NCBI GenBank assembly: GCA_002689655.1
Contig: NZHC01000119.1
Location: 1-64,000, forward strand
Length of the DNA: 64,000 bases
From: Rhodopirellula sp.
Lineage (GTDB): Bacteria > Planctomycetota > Planctomycetia > Pirellulales > Pirellulaceae
Direction of reading: 5' to 3'
This document shows positions 17,644 through 39,095 of the stretch, piece after piece; positions within the stretch are counted from its first letter, which is position 1; each line of letters begins with the position of its first letter. The notes below the pieces were generated by a model that saw only the letters and a program-made list of their open reading frames with translations, made no database searches and was not told the DNA's origin. Made by a program: the position numbers and the translations under genes.

Positions 17644-19134
17644 ATGTTCCGAATCTTGCGCCAGCTATGCTGCATCAATCCGTTTAAAGGTGATGTGCCC
17701 GTTTCACGTGTTTGGATCACGCGACCCGCAACTCGTGGCAAGATCTTACCATTCCCCACACGCGGAAATTATCATCAACCAATCGATATTCTTGCTACTT
17801 TCTTTGCCAAAGCAGATACTGATCGGGGCCGAGCCAAGCACAATCGTTATTTGGAAATTCCCGGATTTGATCCGCTCATGGTAACGCGAGATCCGGAGGT
17901 AATTCGGGCGGTATTAACCGCCACGGGTGCAGGTGAGGGTCGGTTGGATCGGGATACCATGCCGTCGACTGGTATAGCACGAGCGACGGGTCCGGACACC
18001 TTGCTGTTTTCGAATGGTCCCGAGTGGCAGACGCATCGCAAAGCGTCCGCTAAAGCGTTTGGAAAAACTAGTTTGTTTACAGATGATGTGTTTGAAAAAT
18101 TCGAGCACACGTTTCGGACGAATGTTCAACAACGTATTACTGAACTTGAGCATTATTTTGAATCCACCACGACCACTGAAATCGAGTTAACACTCGAGCC
18201 GGAAATTAAATGCATCATGATGGAGATGTTGTTATTCAATTTTTTTGGTGCAAAAGTAGAACCTCAGGATGTGCGCGAGCGATACATTCCTGCTATCGAC
18301 AAAATCATTGAGCACATTGTTCGGGATACCATTGATCAGCAGTTTGAATTCAACCCTTTTCGTAAACGGAAAAAAAATGGTTGTGATCCGGAGTTGGAAT
18401 GTGCGTTTGCGTTGTTTGAACAATTAACAGACCTGTCGATGGCGGCCAGATCAGAAGGAGCCTGCGCATGGGGACGTGTCGATGATAAGTGGAACGATGA
18501 AGATTTGCGGAGCAATGTTAAGGTATTCCTGGCTGGAGCACTTGAAGCAACAACGTCGTACGCTGCGTGGGCCGTTTCGCATCTCGCAAGAAATCCTGAG
18601 TGCCAACAACGTGTGTTTAACGAAGTGCGGTCGATTGACTCATTTGAGACCGCTGCAATAGATGAGGCTCAGCACTTAAAGAATGTTCTGCGAGAGACAC
18701 TCCGATTGACTCCATCGCTTTACTTCTTGCCACGCAAAGCTGTCACAGACACTTGGATTACCCTGTCAGACGGTAGCAGACTGCTGCTACCAGCAGGAAC
18801 GCATGTGCTGCTTGATGTATGGCATGCCAATCGACAACAGGATTTTTGGGGTGTTGAAAAAACAGGCTATCCCGCGGATGAATTTCACCCGGAGCGATGG
18901 GAGGCGGCCGATAAAACTGGCCACAGCAAAGAATATTTACACTTTGGGTTTGGCCATGGTGCGAGGGTTTGTCCGGGAAAGCATTTGGGAGAATTGGAGG
19001 CGTCACTTGTGGTGGGAGGCATTGTTAAATTATTTGAGTTTGAAGCCGTCGAGGAAAGAAACGATCCAAAAGCTGGGGTGTCGACGAAACCGATGGATGG
19101 CACTCTGGTTCGTTTGCGTCTCAGGCAGCCGTGA
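17644..19134 (+). CDS. Cytochrome P450
   Basis: Haem-thiolate monooxygenase of 496 residues. All core signatures are present: the I-helix oxygen-activation motif AGALEATTSYA, the K-helix E-x-x-R in LRETLRLTP, the PERW meander motif (FHPERWEA), and the haem-binding loop FGFGHGARVCPGKHLG with the axial cysteine. No membrane anchor is evident, as in bacterial class I P450s. GGAGG sits six bases before the ATG. No ferredoxin or reductase gene is adjacent, so electrons must come from partners elsewhere. The substrate is unknown. Confidence 0.93.
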   Translation: MFRILRQLCCINPFKGDVPVSRVWITRPATRGKILPFPTRGNYHQPIDILATFFAKADTDRGRAKHNRYLEIPGFDPLMVTRDPEVIRAVLTATGAGEGRLDRDTMPSTGIARATGPDTLLFSNGPEWQTHRKASAKAFGKTSLFTDDVFEKFEHTFRTNVQQRITELEHYFESTTTTEIELTLEPEIKCIMMEMLLFNFFGAKVEPQDVRERYIPAIDKIIEHIVRDTIDQQFEFNPFRKRKKNGCDPELECAFALFEQLTDLSMAARSEGACAWGRVDDKWNDEDLRSNVKVFLAGALEATTSYAAWAVSHLARNPECQQRVFNEVRSIDSFETAAIDEAQHLKNVLRETLRLTPSLYFLPRKAVTDTWITLSDGSRLLLPAGTHVLLDVWHANRQQDFWGVEKTGYPADEFHPERWEAADKTGHSKEYLHFGFGHGARVCPGKHLGELEASLVVGGIVKLFEFEAVEERNDPKAGVSTKPMDGTLVRLRLRQP

Positions 19135-31941: not shown

Positions 31942-32625
31942 ATCAGGGTACAATCATTGAATCGGGTGGGCCGTGGTCTGGAACTCTTCCTGCATTGCCA
32001 GAAACTCATAGGCCAATCCCGTGGGAAACGTGCTTTTGATGTTCAGGAAATAACAAGGCAAGTCAACTCCAACGGAACCATCACGGACGAACAGGCAGAG
32101 TTCTTGAGTTTTTAAGAAGGTCTGGATTTAAACAGTCTGAAATCCATGACAGAAAAGCGAGCTGAACTATTGGGCAGAGTCAGTGAGCTTAAACTGGACG
32201 GCTTGATTTCCCTCACCGACAGGCTGGCCAAAACCCTCAGCAGAATGAGTCAACTGAGTTTGAATCGCCTGAGCTCGATCACGGCTAGCCAGGCTAAAAG
32301 TCTCAGTGGGATGCGTGCTCTCAGGATGGATGGTTTGAGTTCTGTGACGGATATTGAAACATCCATACTCAACAACGTGCAAGAATTTAATTTGGGTGGC
32401 GTGAAGGCTCTCATTGATGAACAAGCAGAGCTGTTGGGTAACGGAAATTTTTGGTGATGTTGCAAAGGCGTCAAGTCTGCAACCGACAGACAATTTGACA
32501 TCATGAGCAAGAGTGGAATCCAGAGCATCACTTTAGGAGCACTCGATTCCGTTACTAGTGCCCAAGCCGAAATAGTGGTTAAAGCTGGCAATCTTGTGTG
32601 TTCTGGCCCAATTGTAGATCCCTAA
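31942..32625 (+). pseudogene. Decayed leucine-rich-repeat gene with in-frame stops
   Basis: One continuous frame reads through about six LRR-like units of ~23 residues with the pattern L-x-L-x-G-L-x-S-x-T-D-x-x-A-x-x-L-S. Examples are TITDEQAEFLS, LKLDGLISLTDRLAKTLS, LRMDGLSSVTD and ITLGALDSVTSAQAEIV. It is interrupted by TAA at 32113-32115 and TGA at 32455-32457, with repeats continuing unchanged after both. The frame closes with TAA at 32623. The track shows only the middle piece (32146-32457). This is a typical planctomycete LRR protein in decay; no intact start is visible. Confidence 0.65.
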
Positions 32626-32781: not shown

Positions 32782-34260
32782 TTATTGCAATCCGGGTTTC
32801 ATTTTCTTCAACCAGTCTGGCCATGTTGTGTTCTTGAACTTCTTGAGCTTTTGGGGTTGGTCCGCGTCAATGACGTTCCAGAGCGCAATGCCCGGTTTGA
32901 CTAGAGGTGCTTCTTTGTCCGGCAGTTGATTGCTCAACTGCGATTTAATCGCGGCGTATGTTGAATCATCTGCCAGATTTTTCCATTCGTTCGGGTCGGT
33001 GTGGTGATCGTACAATTCTTCACCGCCGTCAAAATAACGTATGTATCGGTAGCGATCGCCCCGCACGGTATAGTTGCCGCGCCCCCACGTCGTTATCGCG
33101 GGTGTATCGATGGACTTGTCAGGTTGTGTCAGCAAGCCGGCGAGACTTTGACCATCAACGTACTGGGGAACTTTCAGGCTGCATAAATCACCAAGGGTTC
33201 GATAGATGTTGATCAGCGAGACAGCTTCATCAGAGGAACGGTTTTCTGGAGCGTTCTGCTGCCGTGTATCCATCAACAGAAACGGAACGCGGGTCGACTC
33301 CTCCCACAACGAGAACTTTCGAAAGCTGCGTTTTTCGCCTTGGTGGTACCCGTGGTCGGACCACAGAACGACGATGGTATTACGCGCGTGTGGACTGGCA
33401 TCCAGGGCGTCGAGCAAACGGCCAACGTTGTAGTCAGCCCACGAAATGCAGGCCAGGTACGAACGCCGAACGCGCTGCCACGCTTCTGCTTTGCGGAATT
33501 TGTGATCATCACCCAGTTTTACCATCGACCTGCCGACCCACGGTACGTCTATCAAATCCTTGGGCTCAATCGCCGGTGCCTCAATCTGCTCCGCCTGCAT
33601 CTTAAAGAACTTTTCAGGGCAAACGAAAGCCAGATGGGGTTTGACGATTCCTACCGCCAGAAAAAACGGCTGATCATGGTCTCGTGACAGCACATCCACC
33701 CCATACGATGCGACTTGAAAATCAGGATGGTCTTCGAGCGGATTGGTAGTGGGGCAGAATGCCATCTTGGTGGAATCACCCTGCTGATAACCAAGCTCAG
33801 CAGCGTAGGTCAGCTTGATCTGGTTTTTTTGGTGATACGCATCCCAGTCACCAGGCAAATTGACGGAACCATGAAAGATTTTTCCCGCACCAAAAGACTG
33901 GTAGCCCTGTTGGCGGAACAGTGCTGGCAGGCTTGTGTATTTCGCCAGTACCGAGTCTGGAATCTGTTGATGATCGTAGAATGGATACAGGCCCGAATGG
34001 AAGGGTTCGCTGCCATACAGCAAGCCAAGGCGACAGGGCGAACATGCCGGCGCAATGCAGTGTGCGTTGGTAAAGTTCACACTACGTCGAGCCAACCGGT
34101 CCATATTCGGAGTGATCGCCTGGGGGTGGCCGCCAAGAAACCCGGTCCAGTCATTCATGTCATCGATGGCAATGAACAGCACATTTGGCCGGCCGGCCAC
34201 GCAGCTGGAAAGGCAACCAAGACTGAATAACAACCATGTGGCAAAGATGCGTATCGACAA
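32782..34260 (-). CDS. Exported sulfatase (type I, formylglycine)
   Basis: Arylsulfatase-family enzyme of 492 residues with a signal peptide (MSIRIFATWLLFSLGCLSSCVAG). The metal-binding DD lies in LFIAIDDMNDW; the formylglycine motif C-x-P-x-R is CSPCR in IAPACSPCRLGLLYG; GAGKIFHG and VGIVKPHL supply active-site Lys/His; WSDHGYHQGEK is the second metal site. Overall order resembles iduronate-2-sulfatase-like marine planctomycete enzymes that desulfate algal polysaccharides. The start is a TTG at 34260, preceded by GGGAG at six bases spacing, a strong ribosome site. No maturase or glycoside hydrolase is adjacent. Confidence 0.9.
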   Translation of the reverse strand: MSIRIFATWLLFSLGCLSSCVAGRPNVLFIAIDDMNDWTGFLGGHPQAITPNMDRLARRSVNFTNAHCIAPACSPCRLGLLYGSEPFHSGLYPFYDHQQIPDSVLAKYTSLPALFRQQGYQSFGAGKIFHGSVNLPGDWDAYHQKNQIKLTYAAELGYQQGDSTKMAFCPTTNPLEDHPDFQVASYGVDVLSRDHDQPFFLAVGIVKPHLAFVCPEKFFKMQAEQIEAPAIEPKDLIDVPWVGRSMVKLGDDHKFRKAEAWQRVRRSYLACISWADYNVGRLLDALDASPHARNTIVVLWSDHGYHQGEKRSFRKFSLWEESTRVPFLLMDTRQQNAPENRSSDEAVSLINIYRTLGDLCSLKVPQYVDGQSLAGLLTQPDKSIDTPAITTWGRGNYTVRGDRYRYIRYFDGGEELYDHHTDPNEWKNLADDSTYAAIKSQLSNQLPDKEAPLVKPGIALWNVIDADQPQKLKKFKNTTWPDWLKKMKPGLQ

Positions 34261-34885: not shown

Positions 34886-35923
34886 ATGGCCGGAACAGAT
34901 GGACACAAACCAAATACTTTCTTCATTGAAGTAGCGGGTGCTGGGCTACCCGAAGTCGATGGCCTGTACGTACCATCAACGGCACCACCTGCCACATCAG
35001 AATCCGGTACCGTTTCCAGTCTTGGCTATTGGAACGGGAAATTGGCATGGGACCGTGCTGATGGAAAATCGGCTCGCAGTCCCGCATTGTCATATTCAAA
35101 CAGCTACAAGTCGTGGCGCATCTGCCGCTTGGATGGTCATCTTGCGTACGATATGACATGTGACGACGAGATACCTCCAAGTGATCGAGTATGGCATGTC
35201 TATAAAAAGGGTGTTGCCCCTGCCCCCAGCGTGATAGTCCATCACTTTGATCCAAGGTTGCCGTGTCCCAAGCCGAACGTTGTGTTTGTTCTTGGAGGAC
35301 CGGGAGCTGGCAAAGGAACCATGTGTGAACTTGCTGAGTCACAACTTGGGTGGAATCACTTGTCGACGGGGGACCTTCTTCGTGCTGAACGCGATGCGGG
35401 TGGAGCAACTGCCGCAACGATTCAGGATTACATTGCAGCGGGTAAGTTGGTGCCAAACGAAGTTGTTGTCACATTGCTGAAGAAAGCGATGGACGAAATT
35501 ATTCGAACGACAGGGAAAAATAACTTTCTGCTTGATGGATTCCCGCGTTCCCTTTCCAATCTGCAAGGATGGTTCGATGTTTTTGGGAAGGATGCTGAGC
35601 TACCAAAAATGTTGTACTTCGAATGTCCTTATGAGGTGTTAAAGCAGCGTATTCTCGGACGAGCCAAGTACACGGGAAGAACAGATGATAATGTCGCGAG
35701 TCTGAAGCTCAGATTCGATACGTTCAAGGAAGAGACGCTGCCCACGGTTGAACTGTTCAAGAGCAAGCACAAGTGTGTTGAAGTGGATACCAGCCAAGAT
35801 CGCCAAGCGGTTTACAAAGTCGTTGTGAGTCACCTTGCCGAATACACTGATCTTCAATTTGCTGTTAGACCACTGTCAGAGCGAGCCGAGATGCTTCTTG
35901 GTTTAAGGCCCTTTCCCAAATAG
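34886..35923 (+). CDS. Eukaryote-like UMP/CMP (adenylate-type) kinase with extra N-terminal module
   Basis: Residues ~130-325 are a complete nucleoside monophosphate kinase: P-loop VFVLGGPGAGKGT, LSTGDLLRAER, the NMP-binding region KLVPNEVVVTLLKKAM, FLLDGFPRSLSNLQGW, and the lid-side TGRTDDNVASLKLR. The strings VVFVLGGPGAGKGT, DGFPR-x-x-x-NLQGW and GR-x-DDN are those of eukaryotic UMP-CMP kinases rather than of bacterial Adk or Cmk, and the short lid agrees. Residues ~10-115 form a separate module (VAGAGLPEVDGLYVP, YSNSYKSWRICRLDGHLAYD, RVWHVYKKG). It resembles a small domain I associate with unicellular algal proteins, from memory and unverified. No neighbour suggests a pathway. Acquisition from a eukaryote is inferred. 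Confidence 0.85.
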   Translation: MAGTDGHKPNTFFIEVAGAGLPEVDGLYVPSTAPPATSESGTVSSLGYWNGKLAWDRADGKSARSPALSYSNSYKSWRICRLDGHLAYDMTCDDEIPPSDRVWHVYKKGVAPAPSVIVHHFDPRLPCPKPNVVFVLGGPGAGKGTMCELAESQLGWNHLSTGDLLRAERDAGGATAATIQDYIAAGKLVPNEVVVTLLKKAMDEIIRTTGKNNFLLDGFPRSLSNLQGWFDVFGKDAELPKMLYFECPYEVLKQRILGRAKYTGRTDDNVASLKLRFDTFKEETLPTVELFKSKHKCVEVDTSQDRQAVYKVVVSHLAEYTDLQFAVRPLSERAEMLLGLRPFPK

Positions 35924-36088: not shown

Positions 36089-38413
36089 TTACTGTGTCGC
36101 GTTAAGTACAACGACTGTTTTGAAAGCTGAGGGAGCGGCGACCAGAGTACCATCGTTGCTGACAGCAATCGCTTGGACGTTAAAATGCTTGCCGATATGG
36201 TTGGTTTGGACTTTTGCCATCTGGTCGCAATCCCAAGCATGAATCACGCCGTTCGCACCGCTCAAGAGGTGGCGGTTGTCAGGTGCAAACGACATGGACC
36301 AGTTGATGCCGTCTCCTTCCATCACGCCCAATTTGCGGCTATTTACCAAGTCCCAGATAACGATCTTATAGCTGTCGCCCGTGGCCAGCTTGGATCCGTC
36401 AGGTGAAAAAGCCGCTGCTTGCCCGGAAACGTGAGATTTTGCGACTTCAAAGGTGGCAATCACTTTCTCTTGAGGAACAGAATAAACTTTCAATGTCTTT
36501 CCATCAGTCGCCATCAACTGGTCACCTGAGGGAGAGATGTGAGTTGCTTTGATCTTGCCGTCGAATCCATCGATGGTGGCAATGGGTTGGCCTGTTTCAA
36601 GTTCCCAGTATCGTGCAACGTTCTCTCTTTCACCAGAGAAAGCAAATTTGCTATCTGCTGACAGTGCCAAAGTGGTGATCTCACTATTGTGCAATTTGTG
36701 CTGGCCTTTGAGTTCCAGTTTGCCGTTGCCGTCAGCTAGATAAACTTCGAAGACTCCTTTGTAACCTCCTAATACTACGTACTCACTGTTCTTACTGAAC
36801 CCGCAGACTAAGATATTGCCCATGTGATCCATGCGTTCAGAATCGATCAGCTTTTGACCGCTATTGAGATCAACAAGCGTTGCGGAAGAACCTGACCGTC
36901 CGATCAGCATGAATCGATTTTTTGGGCAGATCGCTACGGACTTGGCCCCCCAGCCGAGGTCATCAATTGTCAACTTGGGTCGCATGGATCGTAAGTAGTC
37001 AATATCTGACGAAATGGCCACACCATCGATGACATCCCCAAATGGATTGTCAGCTTCCATGGCTTGTTTTTGTTCTTCTTGCTGCAGATGCTCCTGGTCA
37101 GCGTCACTTAGCTTTTCAAGTGGAATCGAGATCGTACGCTGATCCGCCCGCTTGAGAAAAATGTTGTCTCCTTCCCGCTTGACGAATTGTGCCTCAATAC
37201 CGAATTTGCCAGTCTGGTCAGACCACTTACGTACTGACCCCAGTTGCGGTGCTTTCACCGGCATCTTGGGTGATGACGTAGATCCAAGTTTTGGTGAGCT
37301 TGAGGTATTGGCTAGCCCGGCCACCATCTTCATGGAGCCAGACGCGTTGCTAAGAGAAGCGGTCTTACTCCCGAGATTAGCCACATTTGCAGCGAATCCG
37401 GCCTTGGCCTGTTCGTTGTCTTGGTCAGTCAGAGTCCTGTTGAGAATAGCTAACTCGTTGAGTGGTACAAATTCAACTTTACTTTTCCCGTATTGACGAC
37501 TTAACACACGAACAGAGACGTTGTCCGTGCTCAGAAAGAATACATCTACCCAACTGCCATATCGCTCCCATTTCAAAGGGGAGCCTTGGGCAAGAGCCAT
37601 GTCTGCACTGAACGCGGTCGTATCGTTTTCCAACACAAGATCGCCGTCGGCTAACGTCCGGAACTTGTTTGAAAATTGGCCCGGATTGGATTCGATGTCG
37701 CGTTGGGTTTGTTGGGAAACCGCAATCCAGTCAGCTCTTGCAAGTGTGAGAAGTCGCATGGCATCATCGGCCTTGACCTTGACGGTACTGGATGTCGGAA
37801 GACTTACGACCACACCACTTTTCCACTCGCCGCCGCGACCCAACATGATCGGAGCTCCCGGTACGAGTTGCGTCGTCGCAGTCCCGCGTATGTATCCAGA
37901 AGGAAGGGTTTTGGGAGGCAAACTGGCAATTCTACGACGCTCGATCTCGTCGCGTTCTTCCTGAGTTAGTTCGCGGACCGGAACATTCACTTTAGGCGAA
38001 CCACCCCGCAATATATTTGAGACGAGTTGTTTCTTTTTTGTGCTTAGATCAACAATGAAATAGAATGCGATGCCATCGTCCTGATTCCGATTGATAATTG
38101 ATCTGGCACGTCCAAACATATCTCGCAAATTGATGGTTCCAGATTCTTTAATCTGAATCGGTAATCCCATCACTGACACTAGACCTTGATTGGTGTTTAT
38201 CTGAAGTCTGGCTTGCCCCTTACCCTCAGAGACTTGTCGATAATCAAAGGACATTCCATCCCCTGTGATTCCGGTATTCATCCTGAAATTTGACAACTTA
38301 TAACGGACGGTTCCATCGGATGGCTTGATCAGATCTTCGCCACTGCAAAAAAGTGCGGGCAGTGAGACAGCGAGAAAAATAACCAATCGCATACGTTTTA
38401 GAATGAAATTCAT
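36089..38413 (-). CDS. Exported SHD1 plus WD40 repeat protein
   Basis: About 774 residues from ATG 38413, which follows AAAGGGG and starts a signal peptide (MNFILKRMRLVIFLAVSLPALFCSGE). The N-terminal half is a planctomycete-specific beta-rich region. An SHD1 (Sla1 homology 1) domain follows: RKWSDQTGKFGIEAQFVKREGDN... ISIPLEKLSDADQEHL. The C-terminal ~270 residues are WD40-type blades: KNSEYVVLGGYKGVFEVY, SADSKFAFSGERENVARYWELETGQ, SPDGSKLATGDSYKIVIWDL, NRHLLSGANGVIHAWD. These combinations are common in planctomycetes and probably bind peptides or other proteins at the cell surface. The track start at 38500 is too early. Confidence 0.85.
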   Translation of the reverse strand: MNFILKRMRLVIFLAVSLPALFCSGEDLIKPSDGTVRYKLSNFRMNTGITGDGMSFDYRQVSEGKGQARLQINTNQGLVSVMGLPIQIKESGTINLRDMFGRARSIINRNQDDGIAFYFIVDLSTKKKQLVSNILRGGSPKVNVPVRELTQEERDEIERRRIASLPPKTLPSGYIRGTATTQLVPGAPIMLGRGGEWKSGVVVSLPTSSTVKVKADDAMRLLTLARADWIAVSQQTQRDIESNPGQFSNKFRTLADGDLVLENDTTAFSADMALAQGSPLKWERYGSWVDVFFLSTDNVSVRVLSRQYGKSKVEFVPLNELAILNRTLTDQDNEQAKAGFAANVANLGSKTASLSNASGSMKMVAGLANTSSSPKLGSTSSPKMPVKAPQLGSVRKWSDQTGKFGIEAQFVKREGDNIFLKRADQRTISIPLEKLSDADQEHLQQEEQKQAMEADNPFGDVIDGVAISSDIDYLRSMRPKLTIDDLGWGAKSVAICPKNRFMLIGRSGSSATLVDLNSGQKLIDSERMDHMGNILVCGFSKNSEYVVLGGYKGVFEVYLADGNGKLELKGQHKLHNSEITTLALSADSKFAFSGERENVARYWELETGQPIATIDGFDGKIKATHISPSGDQLMATDGKTLKVYSVPQEKVIATFEVAKSHVSGQAAAFSPDGSKLATGDSYKIVIWDLVNSRKLGVMEGDGINWSMSFAPDNRHLLSGANGVIHAWDCDQMAKVQTNHIGKHFNVQAIAVSNDGTLVAAPSAFKTVVVLNATQ

Positions 38414-39095
38414 ATGAATCGCCCCTTTAATATGAATCGAAGCCGCGTTTAGCGTTCTTGCCTTCGAAAGTCTATCAGTTTTGTTGGCGTGGCTTCTCAT
38501 TCGGTGAAAAGTAGCCGTGCGGTAATAGGGTAATTATCAACAAAAAGTTTCACTCTAGGCAACAGAGTTAGCGGTGAGTCTTTGATTCGAAGTTAAACCT
38601 AGTCGGGTACGGGTATCAGCAAATTTGGCGAATCACCAAATTCGGAAACACCGTTCCGTTGAGTTGGGGGATCTCAGGTTTGTATTGAGCAGGGCGATAG
38701 CCCACATTTTGTAGCTCTCCGGAGTGGGAATGCTTGGTGGGTCTGGTTGCACGTCAAGGGACGCGGCGGGTGGCTTTGTGGCGGGGTCCGTGGCAAGAAC
38801 GCTCCATTTATGAGAGTTCTCCATCGTTTGAATTTTCCGAATTCGTTAAGGAGACTGAGTCATTCAAATCGCGGGAACTTATTCCACCTCGTCAAGATCA
38901 GTCGCCGAGATTCAGTACCGAGCCCCAGACTTCATTCCTTAGGCATCTCGGCCTGCAAATCCGCCGTATTTCCTGTGTTTGGATTTTTTTAGAAATTGCG
39001 CGCCCAAGTGATTGTTTGCTGACGCTTCGATTCTTGCCTCCTGCTTATGACCGCAATCGGAGGCGTGTCGAATTTTCACTCCGGAGTACTAGCAG
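38414..39095. promoter_or_regulatory. Divergent 680-bp spacer with an inverted repeat
   Basis: Separates SHD1-WD40 (minus) from the acyltransferase cluster (plus). AATTTGG-CGAATCA-CCAAATT at 38622-38642 is a perfect 7-bp inverted repeat and could be a regulator site. Track ORFs of 63, 81 and 121 residues here lack protein features. GGAG nine bases before 39096 is the ribosome site of the first cluster gene. Confidence 0.4.

Follow-up and report, generated by a model that had tools for sequence, protein, structure and literature searches.

At positions 34886-35923 of the window, by which is meant the whole 64,000-nucleotide stretch of DNA from a marine Rhodopirellula analysed here, the forward strand holds a single reading frame of 345 residues in which a nucleoside monophosphate kinase is preceded by an N-terminal module without a name. 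A sequence-only reading had proposed this fusion of a kinase to a distinct module, and both the frame and the fusion have proven real, with all the strings it had quoted (GAGLPEVDGLYVP, SWRICRLDGH, RVWHVYKKG, VVFVLGGPGAGKGT, FLLDGFPR, NLQGW and GRTDDN) found in this one frame. The parts of the gene are as follows:

34886..35923, plus strand: complete fusion gene, with an ATG start and 345 residues plus stop; homologues of identical length occur in 80 loci
34919..35257, plus strand: unnamed N-terminal all-beta module, residues ~12-124, delimited by model, conservation and a stand-alone copy ending there
35270..35845, plus strand: nucleoside monophosphate kinase domain of UMP/CMP type, residues ~129-320, assigned from TIGR01359, PDB matches and trees
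35291..35320, plus strand: P-loop LGGPGAGKGT, residues 136-145, from alignments, with K143 invariant
35534..35560, plus strand: DGFPRSLSN, residues 217-225, ending in Asn225, from alignment columns; Asn225 is invariant in 75 homologues
35675..35692, plus strand: GRTDDN motif of the short LID, residues 264-269; R259, R265 and R276 are invariant
35846..35920, plus strand: C-terminal tail of residues 321-345 with LLGLRPFPK at its end; its conservation is lower than that of module and kinase

Since 80 independent loci have both halves in one reading frame, the fusion is no accident of assembly. The gene is monocistronic, both neighbours (32782-34260 and 36089-38500) being encoded on the minus strand; a promoter scan gave only chance-level scores, and the window as a whole contains no match to an Rfam family. 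The neighbour at 36089-38500 encodes an 803-residue protein, the C-terminal part of which resembles WD repeats, and because no more than two further genomes of the genus have a close full-length match to it, in each case with a frame interrupted by an internal stop, the kinase neighbourhood is itself accessory in the genus. Elsewhere in the window, the protein encoded at 17644-19134 (plus strand) shows, on inspection of its translation by eye, a haem motif like that of cytochrome P450 (FGFGHGARVCPG), and a 103-residue frame at 32146-32457 (plus strand) is made of leucine-rich imperfect repeats of the form LxxLxLxxLxSxT; it may encode a short repeat protein or else be an antisense frame.

The kinase half falls in the adenylate kinase superfamily (PF00406, 126.9 bits against a gathering score of 26.8), and among the NCBIfam models it is best described by the UMP-CMP kinase family TIGR01359 (186.9 bits), ahead of the AK1-type model (142.8 bits) and adk (129 bits), with the limitation that the curated TIGR01359 cut-off of 207.6 bits is missed by the Rhodopirellula protein and that other members of the fusion family score 178-195 bits. 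Its best matches in the PDB are the human, yeast and Dictyostelium UMP-CMP kinases, the human enzyme at ~157 bits, whereas the Adk encoded in the same genome reaches 83 bits at 34% identity. The models for bacterial Cmk are far from being reached (11.9 bits for PF02224 against 26, and 15.1 bits for TIGR00017 against 135.55), and profile scores and tree placement together rule out that the protein is an Adk or a Cmk. Furthermore, the P-loop lysine K143, R166, R221, R259, R265, R276 and Asn225 are invariant in the 75 homologues aligned. Asn225, after the DGFPR segment, stands where Gln is found in the Adk and AK1 sequences of the comparison, and we take it to occupy the position of Asn97 of Dictyostelium UmpK, which contacts the pyrimidine base. 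The fusion thus has the pyrimidine-type base contact, but this residue is not strictly diagnostic and cannot by itself decide specificity, because yeast UMP-CMP kinase has Gln there as well. Position 161 is Ala in the three eukaryotic UMP-CMP kinases compared and mostly Thr, as in Adk, in the fusion. The substrate range, UMP and CMP, would follow from this family assignment.

In two trees, which contain only six eukaryotic sequences, all taken from PDB alignments, the fusion clade (support 100/100) is grouped with the human, yeast and Dictyostelium UMP-CMP kinases at 97/86 and 95/89, and it is separated from AK1, from planctomycete and other bacterial Adk and from the tandem Adk-like proteins of Verrucomicrobiota. 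The latter are two-domain proteins of ~390 residues (L146-L155), the second halves of which have an altered P-loop, GYPGSGRGS, suggesting that one domain is inactive. The proposal of the sequence-only reading that the kinase belongs to the eukaryotic UMP/CMP type is therefore well supported by comparison of sequences. A grouping within bacterial adenylate kinases, which would have spoken against that proposal, is not seen in the best trees, and a grouping with the Verrucomicrobiota tandem proteins is rejected by the AU test (p-AU 0.007), but a tree that places the fusion together with all bacterial kinases is not (p-AU 0.28), and a eukaryotic origin is for this reason not proven. It might accordingly be argued that the kinase is an offshoot of bacterial Adk that converged on UMPK-like motifs, and that the fusion arose in bacteria, as the latter test, the Adk-like Thr161 and scores of up to 147 bits for planctomycete Adk on the UMPK model would allow. 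We nevertheless regard this as decidedly unlikely, since both best trees favour the UMP-CMP kinases, since the fusion family scores 178-195 bits on that model against at most 147 bits for Planctomycetia Adk and at most 159 bits in Verrucomicrobiota, since stand-alone intermediates were found in none of 149 Planctomycetia or 289 Verrucomicrobiota genomes, and since Asn225 is invariant.

The module, comprising the first ~124 residues, has no match in Pfam, NCBIfam, PHROG, PADLOC or the PDB sequences. AlphaFold2 predicts it to be all-beta, with a pLDDT of 85.8 from 75 full-length sequences and 88.6, with seven strands, from 57 module sequences. A Foldseek search of the PDB and BFVD with this model returned nothing at E <= 0.001, and the weak tail of the search, OspA-like or MORN-like single-layer sheets with best E-values of 0.5 and 0.13, is insignificant. 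The description of the module as W/Y-rich is only mildly true, as it contains four tryptophans and six tyrosines in 124 residues. It is conserved at a mean pairwise identity of 0.81 compared with 0.74 for the kinase, and constraint on the added module is even stronger than on the catalytic half. The strong module matches in 392 Planctomycetota genomes and in 199 genomes at the level of the Pirellulaceae lie in long frames consistent with the fusion, and among the 392 Planctomycetota genomes the module was found in no other bacterial context. Weak matches at ~18 bits, as candidates for stand-alone relatives, proved to be chance matches where inspected. In the Halomonas order, genome G562 has, in addition to a full-length fusion copy (L120), a 128-residue gene (L126, 1495-1881, minus strand) that consists of the module alone and ends right after residue 124. 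This gene breaks three columns that are invariant in the other 75 sequences, which have zero to two private changes, and it may be a decaying truncation; its end marks the domain boundary of the module.

A chain that joins a nucleoside monophosphate kinase to another domain is not without precedent, since Zobellia galactanivorans has a bifunctional HGPRT/adenylate kinase (PMC7326950), and the fusion could be imagined to be a phosphoribosyltransferase/adenylate kinase of the same type. This idea is so improbable that we consider it refuted, for residues 1-123 match no Pfam family, phosphoribosyltransferases included, and are modelled as all-beta.

A genome-wide scan with exact peptides, which is biased towards close relatives, returned at least 80 full-length homologues, 70-92% identical, from about ten phyla, including Planctomycetota, Verrucomicrobiota, Pseudomonadota, Gemmatimonadota, Myxococcota, Bdellovibrionota, Acidobacteriota and Lentisphaerota; some of the carriers are metagenome bins and may be mislabelled, but for both Planctomycetota and Pseudomonadota there are isolates and complete genomes among them. 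The carriers in Pseudomonadota are Halomonas, Marinobacter, Nitrincola and Rhodoferax, with isolates among the first three, and many carriers overall are marine or saline. When three genome sets were searched with sensitive profiles, the scores were bimodal, either above 210 bits or at chance level below 19 bits; these sets therefore conceal no tail of divergent members, and the identity floor is not a product of the search. Full-length homologues throughout the planctomycetes, which the sequence-only reading would have held against a eukaryotic gene, are plentiful, but they are patchy and extend beyond planctomycetes: the fusion is present in 9 of 13 genomes of its own genus, in 36 of the 199 of its own family and clearly in 8 of the 392 sampled Planctomycetota, a ninth match being at chance level. 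Since it is absent from most relatives, the gene is evidently dispensable. Another copy (L098), 74% identical, lies near an integrase on NZ_CP101744.1, a complete plasmid of Comamonas sp. C11. In viral contigs and phages nothing full-length was found, which rules out a phage or viral gene.

How the gene came to be so distributed is best seen from its comparison with two housekeeping proteins. Across 19 host genomes, to which the near-identical L001 genome is not counted, the fusion is 70-81% identical to that of the present genome, compared with 38-90% for SecY and 33-62% for Adk. In the seven nearer hosts the mean identities are 83 for SecY, 53.5 for Adk and 78 for the fusion, whereas in the 12 distant hosts they are 44, 39 and 74, respectively. 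The fusion is thus less conserved than SecY in near hosts and far more conserved in distant ones, which argues for horizontal spread rather than for constraint alone, and these identities indicate that it has moved between phyla. It could conceivably be held that the fusion is ancient and was inherited vertically under extreme constraint, with massive loss and no transfer. Indeed, phylum labels are strongly clustered in the fusion tree (13 changes, compared with a shuffled mean of 33.9) and the GC content is ameliorated in all hosts. Purely vertical descent is nonetheless very unlikely, since the contrast with SecY exceeds what constraint alone would produce, since the phyla intermix in the tree in spite of their clustering, and since there is a plasmid copy and the occurrence is patchy even within the genus.

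Strong purifying selection acts on both halves of the fusion, dN/dS of the whole gene being 0.03-0.16 in ten close pairs. Across 81 loci the GC content of the gene follows that of its flanks (r = 0.91), and the copy in the window is ordinary both in GC3 (0.47) and in codon usage, from which it follows that the transfers are old enough for amelioration. A single recent transfer from a eukaryote to a planctomycete is ruled out by homologues in about ten phyla together with this ordinary GC content and codon usage, and the idea first put forward, that a single planctomycete had taken in a eukaryotic gene, gives way to that of a patchy bacterial family spanning many phyla, ameliorated in each host.

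The 80 loci have no neighbouring gene in common and there is no PADLOC match; a conserved operon or a defence island can therefore be discarded. Nor do the loci have a conserved DNA motif in their flanks. Pfam assigns the proteobacterial neighbours to families without relation to the fusion (thiolase, Na/H antiporter, helicases, GGDEF/EAL, LysR). A few proteobacterial copies lie beside a SulP transporter, cfa (cyclopropane fatty acid synthase) and a NUDIX gene, an arrangement common to the Comamonas plasmid and Marinobacter; between L098 and the Marinobacter locus L056 the transporter is 75%, the synthase 67% and the NUDIX hydrolase 76% identical, and in L054, likewise from Marinobacter, the shared island genes are those for a NUDIX hydrolase and for peptide chain release factor 3. 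The present genome also has a secY-linked adk, a cmk and five AA-kinase-fold genes, presumably including PyrH, so that the fusion is an extra enzyme.

Taken together, these observations make it probable that the fusion is an accessory UMP/CMP kinase that has spread horizontally across many phyla as one gene without partners, with the module fused to it. The kinase half would most likely transfer phosphate from ATP to UMP and/or CMP in the cytosol, possibly to dCMP or AMP too, and is predicted to be active from its intact catalytic and phosphate-binding residues. As the module retains ~80% identity across phyla and has no common neighbours, we infer that it recognises something that every host has, be it a small molecule such as a nucleotide or the kinase half to which it is fused; it may thus bind a ubiquitous small ligand or pack on the kinase, and so modulate or assemble it. 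Tethering to a host-specific partner is less likely, again because of the 81% mean identity across phyla. Ultimately the kinase might stem from a eukaryote-type UMP-CMP kinase by one event before the bacterial spread.

It is possible, if on balance doubtful, that a marine alga or another protist was where the two halves were first joined, and that the fusion passed once to bacteria and then spread among them, the module being a beta-rich domain of the dinoflagellate or haptophyte type. The nesting of the kinase with eukaryotic UMP-CMP kinases, the long stem of the fusion clade (~1.8 changes per site) before a shallow bacterial radiation, the many marine or saline carriers and the want of any other bacterial context for the module in the 392 Planctomycetota genomes would all be in agreement with such a history. 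The likeness of the module to beta-rich domains of dinoflagellates and haptophytes is however presumed, a search for viral or giant-virus relatives of the module found none, and the composition of the gene is fully ameliorated. A bolder version of the probable reading, in which a beta-sheet ligand-binding module would control a protist-derived kinase that spread through about ten phyla as a host-independent enzyme and supplies extra, separately regulated pyrimidine diphosphates, must be considered rather unlikely as a whole.

Nucleotide kinases are core enzymes and are thought to be mostly vertically inherited, but here a eukaryote-type nucleotide kinase behaves as a mobile accessory gene across phyla. 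The fusion is therefore a clean test case both for what benefit such a gene brings to a host equipped with Adk and Cmk of its own and for what a module conserved at ~80% across phyla recognises. The literature searched, on fusions of UMP-CMP, nucleoside monophosphate and adenylate kinases, on planctomycetes, Rhodopirellula, Halomonas, Marinobacter and dinoflagellates and on gene transfer, contains no description of the fusion.

Among known systems the closest are the eukaryotic UMP-CMP kinases (human CMPK1, yeast Ura6 and Dictyostelium UmpK), with which the fusion shares the P-loop, the short LID, the arginine set and its tree position, as well as, with the human and Dictyostelium enzymes, Asn225; it differs from them in falling below the TIGR01359 cut-off, in having Thr161 for Ala in most members, in its additional N-terminal module and C-terminal tail and in being a bacterial gene. 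With bacterial Adk it has the superfamily PF00406 in common, but it has Asn225 in place of Gln, is only 34% identical to the Adk of its own genome and is encoded apart from the secY-linked adk. The HGPRT/adenylate kinase of Zobellia likewise combines a nucleoside monophosphate kinase and an extra domain in one chain, whereas the extra domain of the fusion is all-beta without a phosphoribosyltransferase signature and its kinase is of the UMPK type. Finally, bacterial records called nucleoside monophosphate kinase, such as WP_256497028.1 from the Comamonas plasmid, which is 74% identical, represent the same full-length family; they are named from the kinase half only and leave the N-terminal module undescribed, and they illustrate how a database name drawn from the kinase half can mask an uncharacterised domain.
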